DNA of 36,041 nucleotides, taken from the IMG/VR virus record IMGVR_UViG_3300020595_000092, positions 1 to 36,041 of that record. One strand, 5' to 3'. The position numbers were made by a program, and so were the translations under genes. Origin of the DNA: a virus. The stretch's first letter is position 1. Each line of letters begins with the position of its first letter. Positions 1-24,681 of the stretch are shown piece by piece. Under the pieces are notes generated by a model that saw only the letters and a list, made by a program, of their open reading frames with translations, had not been told where the DNA came from and made no database searches.

Positions 1-94
1 AATGCTCTATTGTAGGCTCGTTATTTATGCCACATCTCTTTGCTGTAGTTGATTTAATTACCTCAGCAACGCTTAAGTTATCTGATAATTTCAT
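1..94 (-). CDS. Probable M15-family peptidoglycan peptidase (endolysin), 5' part only
   Basis: A reading frame opens with ATG at 94-92 and stays open to the window edge (31 codons), so only the N-terminus is seen. It begins MKLSDNLSVAEVIKSTTAKR and continues with GINNEP. The pattern 'K-L-S-x-N-x-S/T-x-x-E-x-x-x-S-x-T-A-x-R-x-G-I-x-N-x-P' is, in my knowledge, the usual start of phage M15A/M15_3 zinc D,D- or L,D-peptidases, which cut peptide cross-links in peptidoglycan and serve as endolysins. The His/Asp zinc ligands would lie beyond the window, so catalysis cannot be confirmed. The ATG overlaps the TGA stop of the giant upstream gene as ATGA, indicating coupled translation. A lysis gene directly after the ejection genes is plausible. 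A virion-associated murein peptidase is the alternative. Confidence 0.65.
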   Translation of the reverse strand, partial: MKLSDNLSVAEVIKSTTAKRCGINNEPTIEH

Positions 95-3000
95 CGTTGT
101 CTTGTTGTTCTAGATCTACTTCTAGATCTTGTTCTTTTTCTACTTTTGCCTTCTTGCACGTCAACACCTATTTGGTAATCAGGCCAGCCGAGGAACATTA
201 ATATCTGCTCGTACGTTTTAAACTCACCTTCAAGATCTACAGAGTTAAGTATATTTTCATACTTCTGCATAAGCCTGTCTAGTGGTATATTCGATGCTAC
301 CGATGTACTAACAGCCATAGCTTTTAAGAAGTTTGTATCACTAAGCATTTCTAAAGTACCCAAGTTGTCTTTGGATTTTTGTAAGTAATAACCAACACTC
401 TTAATCTTGTTCAGCTTCGAACCAATAGATGGTGCTATATTAGCTGCTTCAAACGCTAGCATTTCAAAGTCAGGGTTAGGTCTGCCAGATCTCTCTACAA
501 ACTCAACGCCTACATTTTTAATTACAGACATGATGTGACCTCTAATACCAGCACCGCGTAAAAATGAATCAAGCATACCATTAACTAGCTTGAACTCATC
601 AGATTTAACCAATCTCTCTTCGTCATCGTCAGAAAAACCAATAAGTGTGCCTAATAAAGCACTCTGTAAAGACACAAACAAAGCATGCTGTGCCATACCG
701 TAGTAAGCTATTCTAGACATCGAAACAGCAGCACTACCTCTTTTGTTTTTTAAGTTTCTAAGCTCTTTCTTAATTATCCTGTCATACTGGGACTGAGTGT
801 TAGCGAACGTTAATAGAAGTCTACCACCAAGGCTAGCTTGCTGAGCACTAATTCTGTCAGGTCTAGACGACTGTTGTGATTCTTCTGTTTTATTTCTAAA
901 ATCAATAAACGCTCTTGCTTCAGCTTCTTCTTGTGTTAAGCCCTGCTTTAAATACTCGTTAATATAGTTTCTGTAGTAAGGAGCACCACCCATTACAATA
1001 GCTAAGCTATCCGCAATTTGTGTTGGCATAAAGCCTTTTGATAGTAACCACCCTACGGCCGCTTTAAACTTGTTTGTAGCGTTTTTAGTTGCATCAACAA
1101 GTTCAGCTTCATTAATGTCGATTTTAAGACCCTCACGACGCTCTCTCATGTAGTTAGAGTTGACCAGTGTCATCACATCAGACCAGAACTGCTTTTGATT
1201 AGCGTACGCTGCGCCTGCTTTCAGTACGTTGTTAGGACCAGCGGCTTCAATATAGTTTGTAAACGAGATTAACTGCAATACAGCTGATCTAGTGTTAGCA
1301 AACATAACAACACCAACAGAACCATTTAACCAGTTCATGATGTTATTAGTAAACTGTGAGTCACCTGTTTCTAACCTGTTTCTACCCGTTTTCATTCTGG
1401 TAATTATGTTATCAAGAGACTTGATATAATCCTCACCAAATGCTGCTCTCATTTTGTTTTTATTCTTCTCGTTAAAGATAAAATCAACGTTTCTATTCCA
1501 CTCTTCTAAGTATTTCTTTCTACTGTTCTTTTTCAAAGAGTCGATGATGTCACCTATAATACCACCAGAGTTCCAGTTTTTACCAGGTTCTACGTGACCG
1601 TGAAGATCAGTAATTTTCATTATCTCAATAGCGGCTTCTCTAGCCATACCATCTTTAACGACAAATGCTTGAGCTTGCTTTATTTCGTTTTCAGATATAC
1701 CAGATATGTCATAACCTTTTCTACTCCATATGTATATTCTGATAGCGTTTTCAACACTCATACCAGGGAAAGCATCAGCTTTTAACTGCTTAAACAAGGG
1801 CTTAAACGTCTTCTTGATATCACGGTACTGCCTGATCATTCTAACTCTTTCAGCTGAGTAGTTGTTTACACCTTCATAGTAAGGCTCTAACAAGTACTCT
1901 TCAAAGAAAGATATATGCTTTTGTGATTGATCACCTTTACCAACGAGATAGTTTTCTATAAGACCTCTGTAATCGTCGTGTGACGGTGGTACAAAGAATA
2001 CATTTTTATTCTTATCTCTACCCAGTTGTTTCGATGCTACCTCAGAGAATTCTGTTTTAGCGTTTAAACCAGTAACATCTTCAAGTATACTGTTAAACTC
2101 AGCATCTAGATCAGCAGCAAGCCTATTCAACCTTTCTTCCTCTTCTGCTTTTGCTATCTTTTCAGGATCTTGATTGATAGTCCCTGTCTCTTCTATTTCC
2201 TCCTTTAGATTCTCTAAGAATTTCTTTACCTCTTGTTCCTTGTCTTTTAGAGATTTTTTATCTTGGTTAGACATGTCATCTTTAGAAAAATTACCAAGAT
2301 TATCTATTAAGTTCTGTATGTTTCTACCAACACTTCTGTTGTAGTCTAAAGAAACTAAAGCAGAGTGATCTATAGTTACTGCGTCTCCGTTTTCTTTGTA
2401 AATCTCAATATTATTAGAACCTTGTTTACCTACCGGTACTCTAGATATTCTAGACAAGAAGGTAGGCTCTACGTTGTTTCTAAAATGAGGCATAACAACA
2501 CCTTGTTTAGCCAAGAGTTTTTTAGCGTACGCTTTAGAAACTTGTACGGTTACGAAGTCATCTAGTATATCTATAGACGAGTTGTCTTTTCTAGGGTTTG
2601 TTACAACGTTGGCTAAATAACCAGATAAGTACTTAGTTGGTATAGAATACATCAACGACTTAGGTGTTGATTTTTCAAGTACCATGTTTACCCCAAACCT
2701 AGAAGCTTTACCTATAATAGGATTTTTAGCTTCAAATACTGTATCGAATATAAAAGCAACTTCTTCTCTAGTTAAATTACCATTAGCATAAAGTGCTTTT
2801 ACTTTATAGAAGCTGTCTTTTAGTTTGTTTTTTAAAGTCAAAGGATCTAAGCTCACACTTTCGTTAAGAACACTTAACACGTCGTTATCAAAAACCTTTT
2901 CAAGAACGTTGACTTTAGCTTCGTTAGATATAGTGTTTTCACTGACGTTTAGCAAGCTCTTATGTCCTTCGTTTAAAACAGTGTTTTGAGCTATGTTAAA

Positions 3001-6000
3001 CAAGTTATCAGCAAGAGAATCAGTGAACTCTGCTTCAACAGCTTTATGTGTTCTTAATCTAACAGTATCGATGTTTCTAGCGATATTAGCAAAGTCTAAA
3101 GCTAATTGTCTAGAAAGAACAACAGCGCTAGCCTCGTTCAACCATGGGTATTCTTTAGCAAAAGTATTTACAAGGTTGTTTGTCAATGCTATTCTAAGCT
3201 GACCCAATTGCTTATCACGCATCATGTTAGGCATTAGCTTGTAAGGAGCAATACCGTCTTTAAATGCTTTAAGTAAAGGATCTGGGTTTTGCATGATTAG
3301 CTCAGCCATACGTAAACCACCCATTCCAGCGTCTAAAGCGTTAGCACTAAACTTCATTAATGGGTCACGTTCAATTAAGTATGCTACCCTACCTATAACT
3401 TGGTTTTCTTCAACCACATCAGCGTTTTTCTCAATCATGCGCTCGTACATGTCGATGACTCTACCCTCAACAGGGTTGCCTTCTAAATCGTAGAACTGCT
3501 GGTTAGGGTTTTGCATAACTTCAAGAGTAGCGTCGAGACCAAGGTCTATAGACATAGCTTCAGCTAAAACTCTTTTATGCTCATGTGGCATGTTTCTACT
3601 TCTACCGACACGTGTTGGGTCTAAGTAGTTTAACCACTCTTCTTTCGTTGGGTAACGTCTTTGTACTTTGTTTACACCTGAGTAAGCGTCTCTAATGCCT
3701 AACATCCTAGACTCTTCAGCTGTGTAACGCATTACGTTGCCCTTAGCGTCTTTTTGGAACTCATATAAAACTCCGTTTAATGCAGGGAATTTTCTAAGCG
3801 TGTTAAGGCTTAGCTCATCTTGAATCCAGTTTTGATTCTTAGAAGCCCACTCAATAAACTTAGCTGATCGTGTTGGGAACTTTTCAAGTATGGTCTTGTA
3901 TATAAGACCCTTGTATGCTTCAAACAAGTACGACCTAAACAAGCTTGGTTTCCATTTTTTAGTAGACATCAAATCAGGAGACATGCTCAGCGTTCTAGTA
4001 ACAACGCCTCTAATCTTGTTCATCTCCTGTGGTTCTAAACCTAACTTTCTTCTAATTCTACTAAACTCACCTAGTGAAGCTGGTTTATCAATAGCTTCTT
4101 CTATACTTTGCTCGTCACTTACAGATGGACCACCACCAGCGAGATCATCAACATTAGTGTTGAAGGTTTCACTTAGGTATTTGTTTTTTATAGAAGCAGC
4201 TCTTAAAGCAAAATACTTATTGATATAAGCAGCTAATGGCACTCCTTTATCAGGGTTGTAGCTCATCACTATACCCATCAAACCGTTTACATCTGTTAAC
4301 GCTTCATCTTCTATAATATCAGCGTAGTTGTTCCAACCAGGTAATGTGTCCCAGTTACCGCGTGTTACGATTTTACGGAACATTGGTCTGTACATTTCAG
4401 ATATATCATACACGGAAGCAACACCTTGCTCGTCCCATAATCTCTGAACCTCAGCACTCATCTCTTGCTGAGCTTTAGTAGGGCCTCTTTTTTTATCTTC
4501 AAACTCGTTTGCAGAGTTCATATCTTCAGCAGCTAACCAACCCTTAGAGTTTTTATCTACTTGAAGTAAAACACCTTTACCACCGTACTCAGCAAACTGT
4601 CTTTGTGCTTTAGTTGACTTTCCTTTTACAATAGAATTATTGTAGTCTCTAACAAAGTTAAACACGTCTTTACCGGTGTTAAACTCGATGTTCTTGAGAC
4701 CTAGGTCCTGCATTATTCTTCTTATAAAGTCTCCTATTTTTTCAAAGAAACTTTGGTCATAAGTAACTCTTCCAGTTAACAAAGAATCAGATAGCACCGT
4801 AATGAATTCCTCTAGGTTTCTAGGATCAAAAGTTATGTCAGACATAGAAGCCAGCTTATTAAACTGCTCCATGTTTCGGTCTGCTTTTTCAAAAAGCTGT
4901 TGTGCAGAGTATTTTTTACCAAGAAGAGTATACGTTTGGTAAGACCTCATCCTAGACCTCCAGTTGTCTAGGTCTTTTATTTTTCCAGAATCTTCTAGTT
5001 CTAATAAGTAGTTGTTTAAAGCACCTACTGTTTGGTTTAAAGCGTCTGTATTGATCTTGCTTTTACCATCTTTTAGTGCCGTAAAAGTATTGTACAGAAC
5101 AGCGTGTAAAACCTCGTGGCTACCAGTAGTGACGTTTCCAGAAGCTACAGAGCCTTGCGCGTTGACGATGATTTTACCTTTAGATGTAAATACACCTGGT
5201 TTTCTTTTTAATTCGCCTTCAACGTAGTCTAGTTCTTCTTTAGTCGGGTTGTTTATACCTCTATCTTTTAAAACCTCAGCAGCGTATTGTCTAGTGTTTT
5301 CAGCAACAACAACGTTATCACCAACAATTTCTAGATCAGCAAAAGCTTTTACCGTGTTGTTCAGGTTAGCATTGAACTCTTCCATAGAGACTAGTTCAAA
5401 GTTTGCGTCAACAACCTGGGATTTTAAAGTGTTTGATTTTCTAACTAAATCGCTTTTGTTGTGGTTTAAATCGATGTTCTTTATTTCAGCAGCGTGTTGC
5501 TCTTCGGTTATAGAACCTTCTTTCAACTGAGTGTTTAAGACGTCAATTTGCTGCTTTCTTATAGACTCTAGGTCTTTTACTTTTTTACCATCTTCAGAGC
5601 TTTGGAAATCAGATAGCTTTTTTTCAGCATCGTTCTTTTTGTACTCAGCATCCATCAACTTCGACTTCTGATCACTACTCATTGACCTATCAAAGTTCTG
5701 AGAGCTCATCATAAAATTATCGAGCTGCTGCTTTTTTTCCTCGTATGCTTCTTTTGTTATAACACCGTCTTGAAGGTCCTTGTTTAATCTAGCAATATTG
5801 TGTTGATGAAACTCTCTTAGACCTTTTATATCTAGTTTTCCAGCGGCTACAGCATAAGCGTTTGAAACCTCAGTTATCGTAGATGACGTTACATTACCGC
5901 TAAATGGTAATAAAAAACCCATGATAAACCCAGCTCCACCACCTTGTATGTAGTTTTCTCTAATGTATTCACCCACTGTTACATCACTAGCGGCTTGTTG

Positions 6001-7653
6001 AAACACCTCAGTCATCATCTCGTCAAAACCACCTCTTACGGATGTTAATCCGTTTTTAGACTGTTTCTTTAACCAGTGTTTAAATTGTCCTTTGACTAGA
6101 GAAGCAGCATTTTGCCTAGCGCCTTCTTTAAGAATGCTCATACCTAAAGACCTGCCTAAGACAGATGTTGCACCAACGTACTCAGCGGCACCACTAACGA
6201 AACCAACGCCCATGGCACTATTAAACATTTCGTTATTCACGTCCTCTTCAACAACCCTCATTAATTGGTCGATGCTAGGCTGCAGTGTATTGTATTTTAC
6301 TTTAGCTTGTTTTTGTACTTGTCTCAAGTAGTTATCACCGGCCATTTGAGCTGCTGGTAATGTACCAAAGGTTAATATCGCAGACAATATCTGTGGAAAC
6401 TGCTCAGAGGCGATTGTTTTAAGCGTCTGTAAGGACTTACCAGACTCTAATACATCTCTTACATCAGCGTGGCCAAAATGAGACTCTAGAGCTTGTCTTT
6501 CGAATACTAGTTCTAGGTCTTGCTTTTGGTTTTTGCGGCCATCTTCAATGATTTTCTTAGCTTGCTCTTGAGCTTCACCCCAAGTGCCTTTTTTAGTATA
6601 GCCTGATGCTACTGGGTGAAAACCATCTTGCTTTGGCACCATGAAAGCACCTTTGTTATTAAAGTAACCCACGGTGTTGTCATCCCAGCCTTGCTCTTCA
6701 GCTAACTTCTGGTTTACTTGGTACTGTCTTTCTACTTGTAAGTAATCAGCTGTGCCTAAACCACCTGCTTTTACAGCTGTACCTATACCGTGTATGGTTT
6801 TATACGCACCTTTAACAAGCGTTGGCATGTTTTGGTAACCTAGCCTAATAGCGCCTCCAATAGGCGATTTATTCACTAAGTCAATAATAGTATCATCAAC
6901 TATGTAGTTGTCGTAATCAGCTTTATGGCTATCACCAATAAGCTCTTGGTATTTGGATATACGGTTTTGTATGTCTGGATCAGCAAAAATTGTCTGATTT
7001 ATAAGCTTAGAGTATTCTCTTTGCGCTTTTTCAAGCTCTTCTTGAGAAACGTCCTCTATCTCCATGTCTTTAAACGGAGCCATTATGTTCGAAAGACCCT
7101 CTTGAAGATCAGTCTGCTTGTTATCTAACGTTTGAGATATCATGCCTTGTAACTTCTCGTCCTTCGTTACAACAGCATTAAGTGTCTCGTTGTTAAAGTC
7201 GTCTATTACAACTTCATCACCGTAGGGCAAAACAGGACCATAAGGTGTGTTTTTTAATTTACGAGAGGCTTTTCTACCCTTAAACTCTTCTTGAGTTCGC
7301 CTCTTCATATCTTGATAATCAGAGTCGTCGGGTATGAGTATAGGTTTTCTAGAAACACCCATATACTTTTCTTCTTCTTGCGGTACTTTGCCTAAAGTAG
7401 AAGGGTCGAATATAGGGTTACCAAATTCATCAGTCTCTTGTGATTCCGAAGAACCAGCTTCCGAAGACAAATCCGTAGCGGGCTTTTGATTTGGGCTTTC
7501 TGTGGTCTCGCCCTCTACCACGCCCTGTTGCTTTCCCTCGTCTAAAGGTTTTAAACCAGCGTTAGCAACGTAGTCTTCAATAGATAAACCGCTTTCATCA
7601 GCGGCTTTTTGAACCTCTTCAAGAGAATACTGTTGTCCTTCGTATTCAAACAT
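91..7653 (-). CDS. Giant polyvalent internal/ejection protein (2520 aa) with metallopeptidase and sigma-like segments
   Basis: Probably a virion protein ejected with the genome, corresponding in position to P22 gp16-type or T7 gp16-type ejection proteins but far larger. It opens MFEYEGQQYSLEEVQKAADE, a start I associate with large marine-phage proteins. Seen in order: hydrophobic helices near residues 418-435 and 572-590; a coiled coil near 615-758; a zinc-peptidase site HEVLH at 846-850, with a candidate third ligand in the E-E-F motif at 948-949 (gluzincin-like spacing, inferred); a segment near 1080-1155 resembling sigma-70 region 2 (GLMGIVMSYNPDKG, then YINKYFALRAASI); a second coiled coil near 1790-1862; an Arg/Gln/Ser-rich conserved-looking block near 2243-2300; a hydrophobic segment near 2318-2340; and a basic tail ending SRKRTRSRSRSRTTRQR. 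I see no D-x-D-G-D RNA-polymerase motif and no clear lysozyme or transglycosylase signature. It starts 16 bases after the 478-aa gene and overlaps the next gene by ATGA. Functions beyond the peptidase are unproven. Confidence 0.72.
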   Translation of the reverse strand: MFEYEGQQYSLEEVQKAADESGLSIEDYVANAGLKPLDEGKQQGVVEGETTESPNQKPATDLSSEAGSSESQETDEFGNPIFDPSTLGKVPQEEEKYMGVSRKPILIPDDSDYQDMKRRTQEEFKGRKASRKLKNTPYGPVLPYGDEVVIDDFNNETLNAVVTKDEKLQGMISQTLDNKQTDLQEGLSNIMAPFKDMEIEDVSQEELEKAQREYSKLINQTIFADPDIQNRISKYQELIGDSHKADYDNYIVDDTIIDLVNKSPIGGAIRLGYQNMPTLVKGAYKTIHGIGTAVKAGGLGTADYLQVERQYQVNQKLAEEQGWDDNTVGYFNNKGAFMVPKQDGFHPVASGYTKKGTWGEAQEQAKKIIEDGRKNQKQDLELVFERQALESHFGHADVRDVLESGKSLQTLKTIASEQFPQILSAILTFGTLPAAQMAGDNYLRQVQKQAKVKYNTLQPSIDQLMRVVEEDVNNEMFNSAMGVGFVSGAAEYVGATSVLGRSLGMSILKEGARQNAASLVKGQFKHWLKKQSKNGLTSVRGGFDEMMTEVFQQAASDVTVGEYIRENYIQGGGAGFIMGFLLPFSGNVTSSTITEVSNAYAVAAGKLDIKGLREFHQHNIARLNKDLQDGVITKEAYEEKKQQLDNFMMSSQNFDRSMSSDQKSKLMDAEYKKNDAEKKLSDFQSSEDGKKVKDLESIRKQQIDVLNTQLKEGSITEEQHAAEIKNIDLNHNKSDLVRKSNTLKSQVVDANFELVSMEEFNANLNNTVKAFADLEIVGDNVVVAENTRQYAAEVLKDRGINNPTKEELDYVEGELKRKPGVFTSKGKIIVNAQGSVASGNVTTGSHEVLHAVLYNTFTALKDGKSKINTDALNQTVGALNNYLLELEDSGKIKDLDNWRSRMRSYQTYTLLGKKYSAQQLFEKADRNMEQFNKLASMSDITFDPRNLEEFITVLSDSLLTGRVTYDQSFFEKIGDFIRRIMQDLGLKNIEFNTGKDVFNFVRDYNNSIVKGKSTKAQRQFAEYGGKGVLLQVDKNSKGWLAAEDMNSANEFEDKKRGPTKAQQEMSAEVQRLWDEQGVASVYDISEMYRPMFRKIVTRGNWDTLPGWNNYADIIEDEALTDVNGLMGIVMSYNPDKGVPLAAYINKYFALRAASIKNKYLSETFNTNVDDLAGGGPSVSDEQSIEEAIDKPASLGEFSRIRRKLGLEPQEMNKIRGVVTRTLSMSPDLMSTKKWKPSLFRSYLFEAYKGLIYKTILEKFPTRSAKFIEWASKNQNWIQDELSLNTLRKFPALNGVLYEFQKDAKGNVMRYTAEESRMLGIRDAYSGVNKVQRRYPTKEEWLNYLDPTRVGRSRNMPHEHKRVLAEAMSIDLGLDATLEVMQNPNQQFYDLEGNPVEGRVIDMYERMIEKNADVVEENQVIGRVAYLIERDPLMKFSANALDAGMGGLRMAELIMQNPDPLLKAFKDGIAPYKLMPNMMRDKQLGQLRIALTNNLVNTFAKEYPWLNEASAVVLSRQLALDFANIARNIDTVRLRTHKAVEAEFTDSLADNLFNIAQNTVLNEGHKSLLNVSENTISNEAKVNVLEKVFDNDVLSVLNESVSLDPLTLKNKLKDSFYKVKALYANGNLTREEVAFIFDTVFEAKNPIIGKASRFGVNMVLEKSTPKSLMYSIPTKYLSGYLANVVTNPRKDNSSIDILDDFVTVQVSKAYAKKLLAKQGVVMPHFRNNVEPTFLSRISRVPVGKQGSNNIEIYKENGDAVTIDHSALVSLDYNRSVGRNIQNLIDNLGNFSKDDMSNQDKKSLKDKEQEVKKFLENLKEEIEETGTINQDPEKIAKAEEEERLNRLAADLDAEFNSILEDVTGLNAKTEFSEVASKQLGRDKNKNVFFVPPSHDDYRGLIENYLVGKGDQSQKHISFFEEYLLEPYYEGVNNYSAERVRMIRQYRDIKKTFKPLFKQLKADAFPGMSVENAIRIYIWSRKGYDISGISENEIKQAQAFVVKDGMAREAAIEIMKITDLHGHVEPGKNWNSGGIIGDIIDSLKKNSRKKYLEEWNRNVDFIFNEKNKNKMRAAFGEDYIKSLDNIITRMKTGRNRLETGDSQFTNNIMNWLNGSVGVVMFANTRSAVLQLISFTNYIEAAGPNNVLKAGAAYANQKQFWSDVMTLVNSNYMRERREGLKIDINEAELVDATKNATNKFKAAVGWLLSKGFMPTQIADSLAIVMGGAPYYRNYINEYLKQGLTQEEAEARAFIDFRNKTEESQQSSRPDRISAQQASLGGRLLLTFANTQSQYDRIIKKELRNLKNKRGSAAVSMSRIAYYGMAQHALFVSLQSALLGTLIGFSDDDEERLVKSDEFKLVNGMLDSFLRGAGIRGHIMSVIKNVGVEFVERSGRPNPDFEMLAFEAANIAPSIGSKLNKIKSVGYYLQKSKDNLGTLEMLSDTNFLKAMAVSTSVASNIPLDRLMQKYENILNSVDLEGEFKTYEQILMFLGWPDYQIGVDVQEGKSRKRTRSRSRSRTTRQR

Positions 7654-7669
7654 TGTAATTAGTTTTTAT

Positions 7670-9106
7670 TTATTGTACAGGACCCAGACTACCAGGTGTG
7701 GATTGCGGACCTACGTTTATTACAGGTAAAACCGGTTTGTTCTTTTCAACATTCATTATAGCAGCGTCAGTTGTGGCATCGTTACCAAACTTACTCTGTA
7801 TAATAGCCGATGTTAGATCTTTTTGAGTAGACTCATTGTATGGGTCTACAACATAGTAGTCCTTATCGGTTATAATCAACATGTCACCAGGAGAGTACTC
7901 TGACTCTAGGAAATCATTTATATCACTTTTAGAGTAACCTATCTTAGATAACGCATCTACAGCTGAAGCTCCATTGCCGCCACCTATATAAGTAGCATTT
8001 AAAACGGTTTCATTAACATATTTAGCACCTATCAAAGGTTTAGTATCGCCATCCATTACCTTACCCATGTACTCTCTACCTAAATCAGAGCGATCTTTAG
8101 CGTCTACTTGCCTAAGCTCTGCGGTTGTCATATCAGAAGCTGATGTTAATCCAGCTGCTTTTTTCTTTTCGGCTAAACTTATTGATCGGCTTATTGACCT
8201 AGAGTCAGCTCTGTTTTCTTTCGCTATCAAAGCTTTGTAACCATCATTAGCTGTCTGACTTAACATCGCAACGTACTGATTCTCGACAAATTGCGAAAGC
8301 TCTTTAGTTCTTTCAGGGTTGTAGAGTAAGTCTTGATCTTGAATACCAAGACCACCGGGCATAATGTAGTCGTCTGTTGCCATTGATAAAACAGCATCTC
8401 TACCACCTTTTGATAACGCGTTTCTAATCTGCATACGCACGACACCTTCTTTACCCTTGTCCATGGGTTGACCAGCGCTGTACAGTGTGCTATTAAGATT
8501 GATAAGCGACTTTGCTGTTTCAAAGTCTTTAGTAGCATACTTGGGCGCGTCGTCAAGAGTAGCGCCTTCACCAAACGTTAACCTACCAGATTCAGATATA
8601 CCCAAAGGTACTTGGTCTGTAGTTAGATTTGTCATGAACTCAACAGCTTCTGGTCTTGACCCTTCAGAAACAAAACCCTTATCGTAGTCGTTGATATAAC
8701 TGTACTTCATTTCTTTCAGCTTCTCAAAGTCTTGGTCAAGATTTTTGAAAGCCATAGTGATACGGTTCATATTAGATACTGCTTCGGCGTATAGAGGGCT
8801 AGATGCTCCTTCTCTAGATGCTATTTTAGCATTTTCAAAGAACTCATCTTTTAGACCAACAAGATACTTATTAGTCTGGTCCCTCATGTTAGCTGGAACT
8901 TTATCAAGATCTACATTTGTAGGCATACTCTCGATAAACTGACCCATCGTAGCATCAGACGCCTGTTTTCTAGCAGCGTCTTGCTGGCGGGTGTCCATCA
9001 TCTGAGCACCAGCTAAAACAGCTTGAGCGCCAGAATTACTAATATAACCCTGATAAACACTGCCTACATTAGGCATAGCTGTTGTATTTTTTATCTGCTT
9101 AGCCAT
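7670..9106 (-). CDS. Putative internal virion/ejection protein, 478 aa
   Basis: I do not recognise a named family. The protein starts MAKQIKNTTAMPNVGSVYQG, has an Ala/Gln-rich first 60 residues (YISNSGAQAVLAGAQMM) that may be helical and membrane-active, then a mixed charged helical body, and ends in a Pro/Gly-rich tail (VINVGPQSTPGSLGPVQ). There is no signal peptide, no clear transmembrane helix and no catalytic motif I can see. It lies between the 219-residue Ala/Gln-rich protein (gap 2 bases) and the 2520-residue giant, matching the place of P22 gp20 or T7 gp15 in their ejection clusters. From position I infer a minor capsid-internal protein delivered with the DNA. The start is fixed by ATG at 9106. 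The upstream AAGGAT is one of the few Shine-Dalgarno-like sequences in the window but lies inside the end of the previous gene. Confidence 0.55.
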   Translation of the reverse strand: MAKQIKNTTAMPNVGSVYQGYISNSGAQAVLAGAQMMDTRQQDAARKQASDATMGQFIESMPTNVDLDKVPANMRDQTNKYLVGLKDEFFENAKIASREGASSPLYAEAVSNMNRITMAFKNLDQDFEKLKEMKYSYINDYDKGFVSEGSRPEAVEFMTNLTTDQVPLGISESGRLTFGEGATLDDAPKYATKDFETAKSLINLNSTLYSAGQPMDKGKEGVVRMQIRNALSKGGRDAVLSMATDDYIMPGGLGIQDQDLLYNPERTKELSQFVENQYVAMLSQTANDGYKALIAKENRADSRSISRSISLAEKKKAAGLTSASDMTTAELRQVDAKDRSDLGREYMGKVMDGDTKPLIGAKYVNETVLNATYIGGGNGASAVDALSKIGYSKSDINDFLESEYSPGDMLIITDKDYYVVDPYNESTQKDLTSAIIQSKFGNDATTDAAIMNVEKNKPVLPVINVGPQSTPGSLGPVQ

Positions 9107-9108
9107 TA

Positions 9109-9768
9109 TTATCCTTGTTGTGGCACTCCAAAGAATGCGTTAACTCCAGGTCCTCTACCTTCTGTTCTTTTTAGATATTCATGCGTCTGGCCTATACCGC
9201 CTGAAGCAAGTTGACCAAATCCTTGGAAAGCTTGAGCTGTAGCAGCTTCTCTTTCGGCTCTAGCTTGACCAAACATTTGAGACGCTATATTCAATTCTCC
9301 CACAGCTTGGTTTCTTTCCATATTTCTAGACATAACTTCACCTTGACGCTCCATTGATTGGTTTTGCATAGCGCCTTGAGCGGTTAAAGCTTGATTTCTA
9401 GCTTCTTGATTACCGATGCGAGCACCAGTTTGAACGGCGTTTTGCGACTGTTGGTTTGCCATAGCTTGTGCTAATGAAGCAATACCGCTGCCACCAGCCG
9501 CGCCGGAAAGTTGGTTCATAGTGTTAGCCATACCTTGTTGCTGTTGTTCTGCAACAAAGTCCGATTCCTGTTGGTTAACAGTTAAATCCTCATACGCGTT
9601 CTCCATGTTGAGGTATGGATTTGTGGTATCCAGGTTTTGATAGTTAGCCATTGTACGCTCAAAATCAGCCTTAGACGTGTCGTATCTTTCACGTCTAGCC
9701 TTTCTTCCGTACAGTGTCTGGCCTACGTTTAGTAACCCGGCTGCCGCTAAATATGCTGGAAATGCCAT
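9109..9768 (-). CDS. Putative small ejection / pore-type internal virion protein, 219 aa
   Basis: The first 20 residues are hydrophobic (AFPAYLAAAGLLNVGQTLYG), followed at once by the basic KARRER, which would fit a membrane-inserting helix. Residues from about 75 on are very rich in Gln, Ala, Gly and Asn (for example ASLAQAMANQQSQNAVQ), with a Gly-rich linker GAAGGSG and long predicted helices, and the C-terminus is Gly/Pro-rich (GPGVNAFFGVPQQG). This composition resembles small ejection proteins such as T7 gp14 or P22 gp7/gp14, which help build a channel through the host envelope. That is an analogy of composition and position, not recognised homology. The gene follows the gp10-like tail protein by 32 bases and precedes the 478-aa gene by 2 bases, so the three ejection candidates form one translational group. 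Confidence 0.55.
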   Translation of the reverse strand: MAFPAYLAAAGLLNVGQTLYGRKARRERYDTSKADFERTMANYQNLDTTNPYLNMENAYEDLTVNQQESDFVAEQQQQGMANTMNQLSGAAGGSGIASLAQAMANQQSQNAVQTGARIGNQEARNQALTAQGAMQNQSMERQGEVMSRNMERNQAVGELNIASQMFGQARAEREAATAQAFQGFGQLASGGIGQTHEYLKRTEGRGPGVNAFFGVPQQG

Positions 9769-9800
9769 AACTTATTTTCTTAAATTATTATTACATGTAG

Positions 9801-12800
9801 TTAGCTACTGACAAATATTTCAGAGTTAACTGCAAATAGTTCTTTATTAGTTCCTGTTGTGTTAGTCATTTTAACCGATGCGTAGTAGCCAACTAATCCA
9901 GAAGTGTTGATCTGACTGTTCTTAGCGAAGAATATGAAATCACCATCTTCTATGCTAGTACCACCGTTATCGTATTCTATATTCTCCGTGTTGTTCACGT
10001 CTATATAGTACTGTCCACCTGTAGCTCCAATATCAGCACACGTACCTATCTTGTAAATATTACCATTTGATTTCTGGTAAAAAACAATATCATCAGCCGC
10101 TTCTTGTAAAGATACATTTATCTCGTTATTAAATACCAGCCTCATTGTAGGTGTAACCGTATATACTATATCTAAGGTATCTATGCCTTGAACTGAAAAT
10201 TCACTTGTATCCAAAGAACCAGACTGGGTGTTATTGTCCCAAGCATCTTGTCTACCTCTAATATAATTATAATATATTCCCTCTTTGTTTTTCCAAGTAA
10301 CTACTTCACCGTCCTGCTGATCAGTATCTACAGTAGCTGTCCAGCCAGAATCTCCCTCGTAAGAAAGTGTCTTGAAGTTTTTGATCCTAGAAGCCTCGTC
10401 GTTATGTAGTAGAGTTACTGATGTGTCGTGCTGAGTACCGTAGTAGTTAGCCCTGGTGTTGTTAGTATGAGCATATATATTACCGTTTTTAAAAGTATAG
10501 TACACTGAGTTAAGCGAAACACCTGTCTCAGGTACAAAGCTTAATCTAGTCGACCAACCATCTACGCTTTCTTTAAAGGCTAATGTCTCACCGTTAACAG
10601 TCACGTTGTAAGACGACATGTCTTCATTAAAAGAACCATGTATCGCGCCAGAGTGCGCTGTTAGAGCGTCTGTAATAAAGTCTGACATACCTTTAGATGC
10701 TACATCAGTGATACCGTCTCTAGACAGTCTTATAACAGCTCTTCTAGATTTGTCTACGAAGTACGCTCTAAAACCAAAGCTTACAAAAGATTCTGGATTC
10801 TTAGATATACCATACTCACCAACATAAGGAGTCGATTGACCCAATACCCTGTTTGTAGATACAAGGTTAGCATTGCCATCCGCATTGTAAAGTGCGTCTT
10901 TATTAGCAAGTACTCTAAATACTTTATCCTCACAAAGAACAATAAGATCAGTGTCCCTAGCGTGAAGTTTCTGTATTGTACCATATATTGGGTTAAGGTC
11001 TTTTGTTATTTTCTCTGCAGTGTTAAACTGGTTAAGGTTGTTCACACCAGATGTAGAATTGAATATACCACTGTAAATCATACCGTGGCCTCTTCTCTCT
11101 TGAGAGTAAATTTCTTCGATAGTACTAGAAGCTTTAACACCTTTACCCATTGTCTTGGCATTGAAGTCATCTCTAACTCTATTAGATTCAACACCGTTGC
11201 CAAAGGAGTATACATTAAAGTAATCTAACACTTGTTCGTTTTGCAACTGAGCGATTGGTATTGCCTCTGTAGCTTCGAAGAATATATCTAGATCAATAGC
11301 CTCGTTTGGTTCAACTTCAAAAACAGTAGGGTTAGGAGAACTAAGTGTAATCGTGTTCTCATCAAAGACTATAGGTAAAAACCTTTTTCTTTTAGATATC
11401 CTTACAGCATCAGCTGTAAAGTCCTCGTTAGTAAAAGGTGTAGTCATTTTTATGTTCCAGTAATAACCTGTTTCATCGTCAGTGTCTCCAGAAGACAATG
11501 GTTGTCTGTCGTAGGTACCTTTTGTAACAGTGTCTACAACATATAGTGAGCTCCAAGAGTTATCAGTACTATTTTGGAACTGAATCACATCACCACTGCT
11601 AATAGCCGCGTCGAATGCATTACCGTTAGTGCCAAAGTCTATATTATTGCTGTCGTACGGCGCAAAGTAAAAACCAAACAGGTCAGAACCAATTGTTGGC
11701 TGACCATGTGAGTCGATGCTTGGTTGAGCATTAGCGTGTTCTTCCCAAGCAAACATATCTAGAGCAGCAGGCGGCGTATCAGTAGCGTCTGGATCATCAG
11801 ACAGTGTGTTCTGTATGTAAGGAACATTCTTTATACCATCTTGCTCATAATCACTAGGGTTATTCGTAAAGTTGTATATAACACTTTCTTCAAATAGAAC
11901 ATCTCTGTTGATCTTAACGAAGAATCTTCCCTGGTATTCTTTTCTAGCTTCTTTTTCTTTTTTGTATACCTCTACAGTAAATTTATCAGAGCTGGTGAGA
12001 ATTTGTATAAAACCAACATCAGTTAGTTTTTCTTTTGTTGTTATCTCGTAGCAATCATGTGAATCACCAGTATAACCACCTCTTTCTATCTCGTAAAACT
12101 GGCTAACGTTAGTACCTCTTCTGAATCTTATGTAAGAATCGTAACCAAAAGAATCAAAGAACTCTGGATTTTCAGCTGAGTTTGGTCCTTCAAACTTGAA
12201 CGTCTTTAAGTTGTTAGCGACTGTAGTATCAGAACCTTTAACCACTTCTGAAGCCGTGTTGAAAACTCTTTTTATAGAAACAGCATCTGGTACTTCATTC
12301 TGTATATCTAAAATCTTGTATCTAGAAGGTGATATAACAGGTTCATCTGAATTGTGTTTTTTCTTAAGCGTGAGGAAATCTCCTTCCTGTACTTTGTTAC
12401 GCTCAGCACTTGGCATAGACAACCAAACAGTACCATCTGAATCATCAGCATAGTATCTATCAAGTACAATGTTGTAGTATTCGTTAGATATATCCTTAAC
12501 GTAGTATTTAAAATGCGTTGCCCAAGAAGGTGCGTCTTGACCAGACTCAGCTTTGATTCTATTAACCTTGCTTGACTTGTCTATGTCTATTTTTATAGTA
12601 GAGTAGTCATTCGTAAAAACAGGTGTCTCTCTACCGTTGGTATCCAAGTAAACAATACCTACTTGGTAGTTTCTTAAAGATTTTACACTAGACTCAGGTG
12701 TTTTAACGCTTGTTATAGAGTTAGACTGTAAGCTAACTGTGATATCGGCTTCATCAGTGATATCATAACCCTGAACGTAGTTACCATACACAAGTCTATT

Positions 12801-14081
12801 ACCTATAACTTCTTGAGACTTAGCTTTTAAAGGAACGTTGTCGTATGCTCTTAGTAACTGGTTAGATTCTACTAGGTTACTAATCAGCTCTGATGTTATA
12901 GAGTAATTTGTTCTTGTAGTAGGTACAGACTCAACCTTGTACACGTTGGGTGATGAAGAGTCTTTATATAAAATATCTATATACTCTACGTCGGCTGGTG
13001 GTGTTTCAAACCCGCTTATAGTCAATCGCCTTAGGTTGTTTATCATGCCGGTATTATACGCGTTCATAGATATATACCTAAAATCACCGGGTACAAAAAC
13101 AGCGTTAGTCCAAGGTGAAAAACCAGACACTTCACCATCAACATATCTCCATCTGTAAGCAAATCTAGGGAAAGACAATTCAAACATTGGTCTTTCTTCT
13201 TCAAGAATACACTTCCATGTGTACTCTATAGATTTTATATCAGACGATATAGACTGTATAGTACCAGTAACAAACCTTAGTAAAGCACCAGTTATAGAAA
13301 CAACTTCTATTCTAACCTGGTACTCATCTTCGTAGTTGTTATCGTTTATCTCACTAGCTGTCAGTACGATGATATCACCAGCACTCCAGTTAGGAGAATC
13401 ACTTACAGTAAAAGATATAGAGCTACCTACTTCTCTAGGCACCTTGTTGCCGTTATAAAGCTCTGTAAAGTCTTGTTGAGCGGTTACATAGTTCAAGCCA
13501 GAACCAACACCAGATCTAGTGGTTGAAGCAGCCACATAATGTGGCCTTTCGTTTGGTTTTTTCTTTATAACAGTAATATCTGAAGCTATAAAGTCCCTAC
13601 CATATACAGTCGTGTGGTCTTGACCAGTTTGGTTTGTACCGGACTTAAATCTTGATATTAGTATTTTTCTAGGCTCATTAAGATCATCTGTCCACATGAG
13701 CATACCATCAAATATATTTACACCAGTGATCAAGTTGCCTACACTAAAGCTTAACACACTGTTGTAATCTACTATAACAAAAGATACGGCTTCGTTTGAC
13801 TCATTGTACTCTAAAATAAAGTCACCTTCATCTGCAGTTACAAACCAATATATCTTATTGTTCTGCGTGTCTTTTACATTACCAATGCAGGTAGCGTTTG
13901 TAAAGTTAAATGAAGACTTAGCCGTGTTGCCAAGTACACTTTCTATTGCTCCTACATCAGAACCTTCAGAGTTACTAACCTGTACGTTCAGTGCATCCCT
14001 GTACTGACCATTAGGTACAAGCCTCTCATCAAGGTCTTTGTTCATTTTACCTGATGTGAAAACGCGCTTTAATTCTGGCAT
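9801..14081 (-). CDS. P22 gp10-like / crAss muzzle-like tail stabilisation protein, 1426 aa
   Basis: Large tail component placed right after the connector genes. Its N-terminus (GKMNKDLDERLVPNGQYRDA, then NVQVSNSEGSDVGAIESVLGN) is the pattern I know from the phage stabilisation protein family (P22 gp10) and the muzzle protein of crAss-like phages, which plugs and extends the portal vertex. The rest is beta-rich, with repeated short strands and aromatic turns and a second recognisable block VIGNRLVYGNYVQGY near residue 425. The C-terminus has GDFIFFAKNSQINTSGLVGY, ending NSEIFVSS, which I recall from marine phage homologues. P22 gp10 is about a third of this length, so extra domains are present. 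No membrane segment or catalytic motif is visible. It starts 3 bases after the 288-aa connector gene, with an A-rich leader and no Shine-Dalgarno. I am fairly sure of the family and less sure of its exact place in the particle. Confidence 0.72.
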   Translation of the reverse strand: MPELKRVFTSGKMNKDLDERLVPNGQYRDALNVQVSNSEGSDVGAIESVLGNTAKSSFNFTNATCIGNVKDTQNNKIYWFVTADEGDFILEYNESNEAVSFVIVDYNSVLSFSVGNLITGVNIFDGMLMWTDDLNEPRKILISRFKSGTNQTGQDHTTVYGRDFIASDITVIKKKPNERPHYVAASTTRSGVGSGLNYVTAQQDFTELYNGNKVPREVGSSISFTVSDSPNWSAGDIIVLTASEINDNNYEDEYQVRIEVVSITGALLRFVTGTIQSISSDIKSIEYTWKCILEEERPMFELSFPRFAYRWRYVDGEVSGFSPWTNAVFVPGDFRYISMNAYNTGMINNLRRLTISGFETPPADVEYIDILYKDSSSPNVYKVESVPTTRTNYSITSELISNLVESNQLLRAYDNVPLKAKSQEVIGNRLVYGNYVQGYDITDEADITVSLQSNSITSVKTPESSVKSLRNYQVGIVYLDTNGRETPVFTNDYSTIKIDIDKSSKVNRIKAESGQDAPSWATHFKYYVKDISNEYYNIVLDRYYADDSDGTVWLSMPSAERNKVQEGDFLTLKKKHNSDEPVISPSRYKILDIQNEVPDAVSIKRVFNTASEVVKGSDTTVANNLKTFKFEGPNSAENPEFFDSFGYDSYIRFRRGTNVSQFYEIERGGYTGDSHDCYEITTKEKLTDVGFIQILTSSDKFTVEVYKKEKEARKEYQGRFFVKINRDVLFEESVIYNFTNNPSDYEQDGIKNVPYIQNTLSDDPDATDTPPAALDMFAWEEHANAQPSIDSHGQPTIGSDLFGFYFAPYDSNNIDFGTNGNAFDAAISSGDVIQFQNSTDNSWSSLYVVDTVTKGTYDRQPLSSGDTDDETGYYWNIKMTTPFTNEDFTADAVRISKRKRFLPIVFDENTITLSSPNPTVFEVEPNEAIDLDIFFEATEAIPIAQLQNEQVLDYFNVYSFGNGVESNRVRDDFNAKTMGKGVKASSTIEEIYSQERRGHGMIYSGIFNSTSGVNNLNQFNTAEKITKDLNPIYGTIQKLHARDTDLIVLCEDKVFRVLANKDALYNADGNANLVSTNRVLGQSTPYVGEYGISKNPESFVSFGFRAYFVDKSRRAVIRLSRDGITDVASKGMSDFITDALTAHSGAIHGSFNEDMSSYNVTVNGETLAFKESVDGWSTRLSFVPETGVSLNSVYYTFKNGNIYAHTNNTRANYYGTQHDTSVTLLHNDEASRIKNFKTLSYEGDSGWTATVDTDQQDGEVVTWKNKEGIYYNYIRGRQDAWDNNTQSGSLDTSEFSVQGIDTLDIVYTVTPTMRLVFNNEINVSLQEAADDIVFYQKSNGNIYKIGTCADIGATGGQYYIDVNNTENIEYDNGGTSIEDGDFIFFAKNSQINTSGLVGYYASVKMTNTTGTNKELFAVNSEIFVSS

Positions 14082-23856: not shown

Positions 23857-24131
23857 CTAGACCTTTTTTCAGCAAAGCCAGAAAAAGATTTCTTTTGTTC
23901 TTTTTCTATAGGCTTATTCTCTAGCATAGCCTCTTCTTCAGTAATCTTGTTTAAGATCTCTAAAGCGTCTAGAATAGCTAGTTTTTTTGTGGCTGCAGCA
24001 TTTTTCAACCTGTCCGCGGAAACATCATCTTCTGTCTTAGTAATAATAGGCTCTTCAGCAACTTTAATAAGTTCTTCAATAGCTTTACGACCAGCTCGGA
24101 TTATATTCCTTTTTGTCTCCTTTATGTCCAT
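23853..24131 (-). CDS. Candidate terminase small subunit, 92 aa
   Basis: Small, charged and helical: MDIKETKRNIIRAGRKAIEE, then SADRLKNAAATKKLAILDAL, followed by EILNKITEEEA and a basic Lys/Ser/Arg-rich tail. A DNA-recognition subunit of terminase usually sits directly before the large subunit, and this gene overlaps terL by 4 bases and the GroES-like gene by 47 bases. I recall similar small helical proteins before terL in marine phages. No classic helix-turn-helix is obvious, so the assignment is mainly positional. An unrelated small head-assembly factor is possible. Confidence 0.42.
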   Translation of the reverse strand: MDIKETKRNIIRAGRKAIEELIKVAEEPIITKTEDDVSADRLKNAAATKKLAILDALEILNKITEEEAMLENKPIEKEQKKSFSGFAEKRSR

Positions 24132-24681
24132 AGTTTATGGTTATAGCTGCGGAGAGAACACGGTATAAACGTTCACCGTCTATAACAAACTCATATTCAC
24201 TCCGGGGTGTGAACCCTACAATGTCGCCCTGCTGCAGACCTTGCGCTTGTAGATCATCACCCAACATTTTCAACACACCTATATTTGGTAGCTCTTTCTC
24301 TGTAGTCCACATGTCGTCAGACTCTAATGGTTTTACGAAACAATAACCGTCCAGCGCTTTCCATTCGCCACCGCGTTTGTACGCAAAGACCTGGTCTTCT
24401 TTACAGAAGTAAGTATCCTCTGCAAAAAAGCTACGGCTATTCTTTTCGTTACCTCTAACATCGTAAAACCTTCTAAAAACATTGTGATGAACTATAACGT
24501 CATCACCAGGTTCAACACCGCCGCAGTGTCTTAGCGGTGCACCCATAACAGTACCAACTCTATTTACATACCTGTGGTCTTGTAGATCAGTATTAAGTAT
24601 AAGCTCTTTTTCACCAAGCTTTTTCTTATTACTGCTTCTAGTTCCCTTAGGTGTTACAACAAAGTCAAAAACAGATCTCAT
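24085..24681 (-). CDS. GroES-like co-chaperonin, apparent double barrel, 198 aa
   Basis: GroES-type proteins cap GroEL; T4 gp31 does this to let the host chaperonin fold the capsid protein. The pattern here is GTVMGAP, then GVEPGDDVIVHHNVFRR, FCKEDQVFAYKRGGEW and GYCFVKPLE, which I associate with phage co-chaperonins. A second, similar unit follows: NIGVLKMLGDD, GLQQGDIVGFTPRSEYEF and DGERLYRVLSAAITINY. At 198 residues the protein is about twice the size of GroES, which fits two fused barrels. No GroEL gene is visible, so the host chaperonin would be the partner. The gene stands directly before the terminase-portal-capsid block, consistent with capsid folding. It overlaps the 73-aa gene stop by one base and the 92-aa gene by 47 bases. 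Family membership is likely; the double-barrel reading is inference. Confidence 0.6.
   Translation of the reverse strand: MRSVFDFVVTPKGTRSSNKKKLGEKELILNTDLQDHRYVNRVGTVMGAPLRHCGGVEPGDDVIVHHNVFRRFYDVRGNEKNSRSFFAEDTYFCKEDQVFAYKRGGEWKALDGYCFVKPLESDDMWTTEKELPNIGVLKMLGDDLQAQGLQQGDIVGFTPRSEYEFVIDGERLYRVLSAAITINYGHKGDKKEYNPSWS

Follow-up and report, generated by a model that had tools for sequence, protein, structure and literature searches.

Phage particles are known to carry RNA polymerases, as in N4, crass-like and phiKZ-like phages, or modifiers of RNA polymerase, such as T4 Alt. In bacterial sigma factors, it is region 2 that holds on to RNA polymerase and melts promoters open. The N4-type virion RNA polymerase proteins are ejected giants in which a zincin metallopeptidase domain is fused to a transcription module, and the phage polyvalent proteins (Iyer et al. 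2017, PMC5512222), described in a study whose main text nowhere mentions sigma, likewise include modular giants that are encoded among the virion genes and bear a zincin-like HExxH domain. Crassviruses store large cargo proteins in a virion with a crass-type muzzle tail (phi-crAss001 gp45-gp50; PMC10172136), and the main text of that report is equally silent on sigma. We found no description in the open-access literature of a sigma domain residing in a virion protein of this kind.

Here we analysed a 36-kb virus contig (36,041 nucleotides, hereafter the window) from an uncultured marine phage that encodes a probable virion protein of 2520 residues, within which a preliminary description had noticed a segment resembling sigma-70 region 2. 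Like the polyvalent proteins, this giant is modular and belongs to the virion cluster, and it contains an HExxH motif in a putative zincin-like domain. Like the N4-type proteins, it would join such a domain to a module of transcription type, with the difference that N4 carries a whole single-subunit RNA polymerase whereas the window giant has a sigma-like piece only. The window shares with crassviruses the C-terminal domain of the muzzle, and differs from them in that crassvirus cargo includes RNA polymerase subunits. The features discussed below are listed in Table 1.

Table 1. Features of the window giant, with window positions, strand and residue numbers
Feature	Position (strand)	Residues	Description	Basis
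Giant protein of 2520 aa, probable virion cargo/polyvalent protein	91..7653 (-)		Last gene of the virion cluster	ORF
Zincin-like domain and linker	4489..5343 (-)	771-1055	Precedes the sigma-like domain	AlphaFold model and alignment A6
HExxH motif HEVLH	5104..5118 (-)	846-850	Zincin-like metallopeptidase domain	Alignment of 45 relatives
Sigma-70 region 2-like domain, core	4159..4428 (-)	1076-1165	Regions 1.2/2.1 to 2.4	Profile match and predicted fold
Region 2.1-2.2-like stretch EDEALTDVNGLMGIVMSYNP	4252..4311 (-)	1115-1134	Counterpart of the core-binding helix; aligned to RpoD 402-421	
Region 2.3-2.4-like helix GVPLAAYINKYFALRAASI	4189..4245 (-)	1137-1155	Counterpart of the -10 recognition helix	

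Genomic setting of the giant protein

The portal, major capsid and terminase genes of the window match those of podoviruses of marine flavobacteria, namely Cellulophaga phi38:1 and phi18:3, the Flavobacterium elemo phages and Maribacter Panino. A GroES-like co-chaperonin gene, identified by a PHROG match, adjoins the terminase gene (24085-24681, minus strand). The gene of the multidomain giant lies after the portal, capsid and muzzle genes, and its positional counterparts are phi38:1 gp101, a 3694-aa structural protein of elemoF and phi18:3 gp123, all of which occupy the same place behind portal, capsid, muzzle and ejection-type genes. The last of these, gp123, is annotated as a virion protein from MS/MS of virions. 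Because of this synteny with phages in which the terminal giant was found by MS/MS, the window giant is likely to be a packaged virion cargo protein, and the same gene order suggests that it would be ejected into the host together with the DNA. Sequence comparison of the window giant with the giants of phi38:1, phi18:3, elemoF, Panino and ctfjg026 gave no detectable similarity, and profile searches of these giants detected no sigma-like domain; the elemoF giant does have an HExxH motif in common with it. Elsewhere in the window, a 1426-aa protein (9801-14081, minus strand) matches the C-terminal domain of the crassvirus muzzle (E 1.3e-9), which links these flavophages to crassvirus-type tails.

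The two histidines and the glutamate of HExxH, together with one glutamate downstream, are invariant in 45/45 aligned relatives, and each giant ORF with the sigma-like domain among the contigs retrieved with our six-sequence alignment (see below) also has an upstream HExxH motif, which is retained by giants lacking the sigma-like domain as well. The fold search with the model of residues 771-1167 returned one weak zincin-type match only (Z 4.0).

Sequence and predicted fold of the sigma-like domain

The peptides on which the sigma proposal was built were confirmed at residues 1086-1155 of the giant, on the minus strand, starting with EMYRPMFRKIV at residues 1086-1096 (window 4366-4398). The spacing of the motif does parallel that of RpoD (403-439), as had been claimed, and it exceeds chance according to the hhalign controls given below.

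When the window sequence was searched alone, the stretch had no match of any kind in Pfam or the PDB and no sigma match in PHROGs, and a tblastn comparison with named phages was likewise negative. Relatives of the protein were collected stepwise; an alignment of six sequences (A3) retrieved 56 viral contigs with the domain, and the family alignments used thereafter comprised 38 (A4), 52 (A5) and, for the core, 28 sequences (A7). When A5 was compared by hhalign with region 2 from sigma factors of E. coli and of phages, the score was 35.8, as against a mean of 11.8 (sd 2.6, maximum 22.3) for 150 column-shuffled controls and 13.1 for the reversed profile. The alignment was in register over regions 2.1-2.3, and this register is the one proposed in the preliminary description. 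Searching all PDB sequences with the core profile A7 returned a sigma factor as the top match (E = 0.002), with sigma factors accounting for 8/13 matches. The longer profile A5 gave no sigma match in the PDB, probably because it is diluted by the variable C-terminal part. The Pfam Sigma70_r2 model matched two members of the A7 core (E up to 1.3e-4), and this same model (PF04542) matched the giants of two relatives with E-values of 1e-5 (in a 2296-aa frame) and 4.5e-4, both below the curated cut-off. A significant match to a sigma region 2 profile, proposed earlier as a check on the assignment, was thus obtained for the family profile and not for the window sequence by itself.

Structure prediction was the second check. 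AlphaFold models of residues 1052-1269 and 771-1167 were built template-free and with no sigma sequences in the alignment. In both, pLDDT was about 90 or more across most of the sigma-like domain (mean of 86 over the whole stretch 771-1167), and in the model of residues 1052-1269 the GVPLAAYINKYFALRAASI region was predicted as a helix (H89-112). With VIA-align, sigma factors filled the first 22 rows for model 1052-1269 (Z up to 7.3) and the first 45 for model 771-1167 (Z up to 7.5), the matches mostly covering 87-97 residues at 2.6-4 A and corresponding to structures of sigma regions 1.2-2.4. The best non-sigma match was TFIIB, in the first search, with Z 4.6; other non-sigma folds scored at or below about 4, the exception being a crosslinking-based model containing RpoC. 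The predicted models, which are not solved structures, therefore present the region 2 helical fold in the 1.2-2.4 arrangement that had been anticipated, with sigma factors leading the structural matches. A Z of 7-7.5 is middling and the Foldseek E-values were >1; what carries the argument is that sequence and fold agree: a predicted fold of some 90 residues and an in-register profile match, both shared with sigma-70 region 2 (PF04542; RpoS, RpoH and RpoD 1.2-2.4).

One could imagine that a generic helical bundle has acquired a short look-alike motif by convergence, with no relationship to sigma factors. The missing single-sequence match for the window protein and the middling structural Z for a helical domain are what such an origin would leave behind, but it is hard to reconcile with a profile score far over those of the shuffled and reversed controls, or with the dominance of sigma factors in independent sequence and fold searches, and we consider it improbable. 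Taken together, the profile and model data argue that the homology of the domain to sigma region 2, and its fold, are very probably real.

Retained residues and spread among relatives

In RpoD, the core-binding residues of region 2.2 are D403, Q406, E407 and N409, and the aromatic residues that melt the -10 element are Y425, F427, Y430, W433 and W434. Among the relatives of the window domain, equivalents of D403 (39/52), G408 (44/52) and G411 (all) are kept, as are an aromatic residue at F419 and Y430 (all). Positions Q406, E407 and N409 are changed, so that most of the core-binding set is altered; the EDEALTDVNGLMGIVMSYNP stretch of the window protein keeps the equivalents of D403 and G411. 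The set of melting aromatics is likewise broken, the equivalents of Y425, F427 and W433 being lost, which bears out the reservation expressed at the outset about the -10-binding residues; in the window protein Y1143 aligns with Y430 and Y1147 with W434, where Tyr stands in place of Trp. Conservation of the PLAAYINKY block was left out as evidence since it is biased by the collection scan, which was seeded on L[AL]AYIN[KT]Y. Relatives found by routes other than this seed motif (L172, L177 and L178) read PLAAYINSF, PLGAYMNTY and VAAYINTF, and because they show both residues, the Tyr at 430 and the aromatic at 434 hold independently of the seed.

No Pfam match to region 4, the DNA-binding helix-turn-helix, was found in the whole giant at E up to 10, although a diverged copy could escape Pfam, and none to region 3 was found. 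Because no region 4 was found and core-binding and melting residues are changed, the domain reads, at the level of sequence, as sigma-derived and not as a complete sigma factor; it differs from sigma-70 factors further in forming part of a protein of 2520 aa that is probably a virion component.

The variation of the domain was followed across related contigs. In the portal-sampled contigs in which the giant gene could be read (n=7), the domain is present in three (G029, G031 and G037) and was not detected in four (G035, G038, G039 and G040), a distribution that suggests a module subject to gain and loss. A distant giant, that of L094 (ORF 2357-12280), contains at about residue 1527 the sequence WDPAKGTFPSFMANRGMQRANKFV; the profile did not detect it, and it may represent a more strongly diverged version of the region 2.2-2.4 motif. 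Residues 1081-1140 (about 4234-4413), which cover the sigma-like helices, differ by 23% in nucleotide sequence between the window and its 97%-identical relative L001, against a background of a few percent outside this patch. Diversifying selection was considered for this patch and rejected, as dN/dS between the two sequences is 0.145 in the sigma-like domain, indicating purifying selection; given this value, exchange of the module by recombination under purifying selection is likelier.

These observations bear on the main alternative, namely that a sigma descendant now serves a purely structural purpose, as a helical spacer or as an assembly or ejection module, and touches neither RNA polymerase nor promoters. 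Erosion of the core-binding and promoter-melting residues would be expected of such a part, as would the failure to detect it in some of the related giants that occupy the corresponding place in their genomes. Yet the fold and purifying selection have been retained, and the Tyr at Y430 and the aromatic at W434 recur in the three relatives collected without the motif. A purely structural role is accordingly a possibility that we take seriously while doubting it.

A stand-alone sigma factor (~250-300 aa, over the Pfam cut-off) is encoded by 16/26 contigs that have the domain or a close relative, and the related contigs G031, G038 and G040 also encode one. On the relatives' contigs (L160, L161, L162 and L163-L171), these proteins comprise a diverged but conserved type of about 255 aa and RpoD-like ones, the latter in G004 and G006. 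The named flavophages have no separate sigma factor over the Pfam cut-off. For multisubunit RNA polymerase, no Rpb1-type match over the cut-off was found in the relatives; the absence of RNA polymerase is to be read from this Rpb1-type search, the T7-type search being uninformative with its control silent.

Many relatives thus have a sigma factor of their own beside the giant, which speaks against the giant being a complete virion-delivered, sigma-like activator that steers host RNA polymerase to early phage promoters. The predicted region 2 fold and the Tyr residues at the Y430 and W434 positions are compatible with an activator of this sort, but region 3 and region 4 are missing from the giant according to Pfam and the melting aromatics are lost. 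As region 4 and several promoter-melting residues are missing, a complete promoter-specific sigma factor is unlikely on sequence grounds, and an activator with early-promoter specificity is, in our estimate, very improbable indeed.

A possible role at the time of infection

The reading that we put forward is that residues about 1060-1165 are a diverged sigma-70 region 2 docking module, set beside a zincin-like domain in an ejected polyvalent virion protein; we hold the chances of its being right or wrong to be evenly balanced. In this model, suggested by synteny for its first step, the virion would carry the giant and release it along with the DNA. Once inside the cell, the module of sigma origin would dock the giant on host RNA polymerase at its clamp, on melted DNA, or on both. 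Docking could interfere with host sigma factors, or could keep RNA polymerase in the vicinity of the entering genome. The separate sigma factor of most relatives could serve a promoter-specific role later. Binding of RNA polymerase or promoter DNA by the domain is what we infer, and the "transcription switch" envisaged in the preliminary description is a possible role for it.

More tentatively, and with more doubt than confidence, we suggest that uncultured marine phages of a widespread group bring in, within the particle, a sigma region 2 module linked to a protease, which at the moment of infection would seize host RNA polymerase or the incoming DNA ahead of any phage gene expression. If true, this would be a virion-borne takeover of transcription that does without a virion RNA polymerase, and it would explain how early transcription might be biased by phages that depend on the polymerase of the host. 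An ejected, protease-like protein with a sigma-type module fused to it would then be a further route to host transcription at time zero and, provided that the giant is virion-borne, the phage may access the host transcription machinery before making any proteins of its own.
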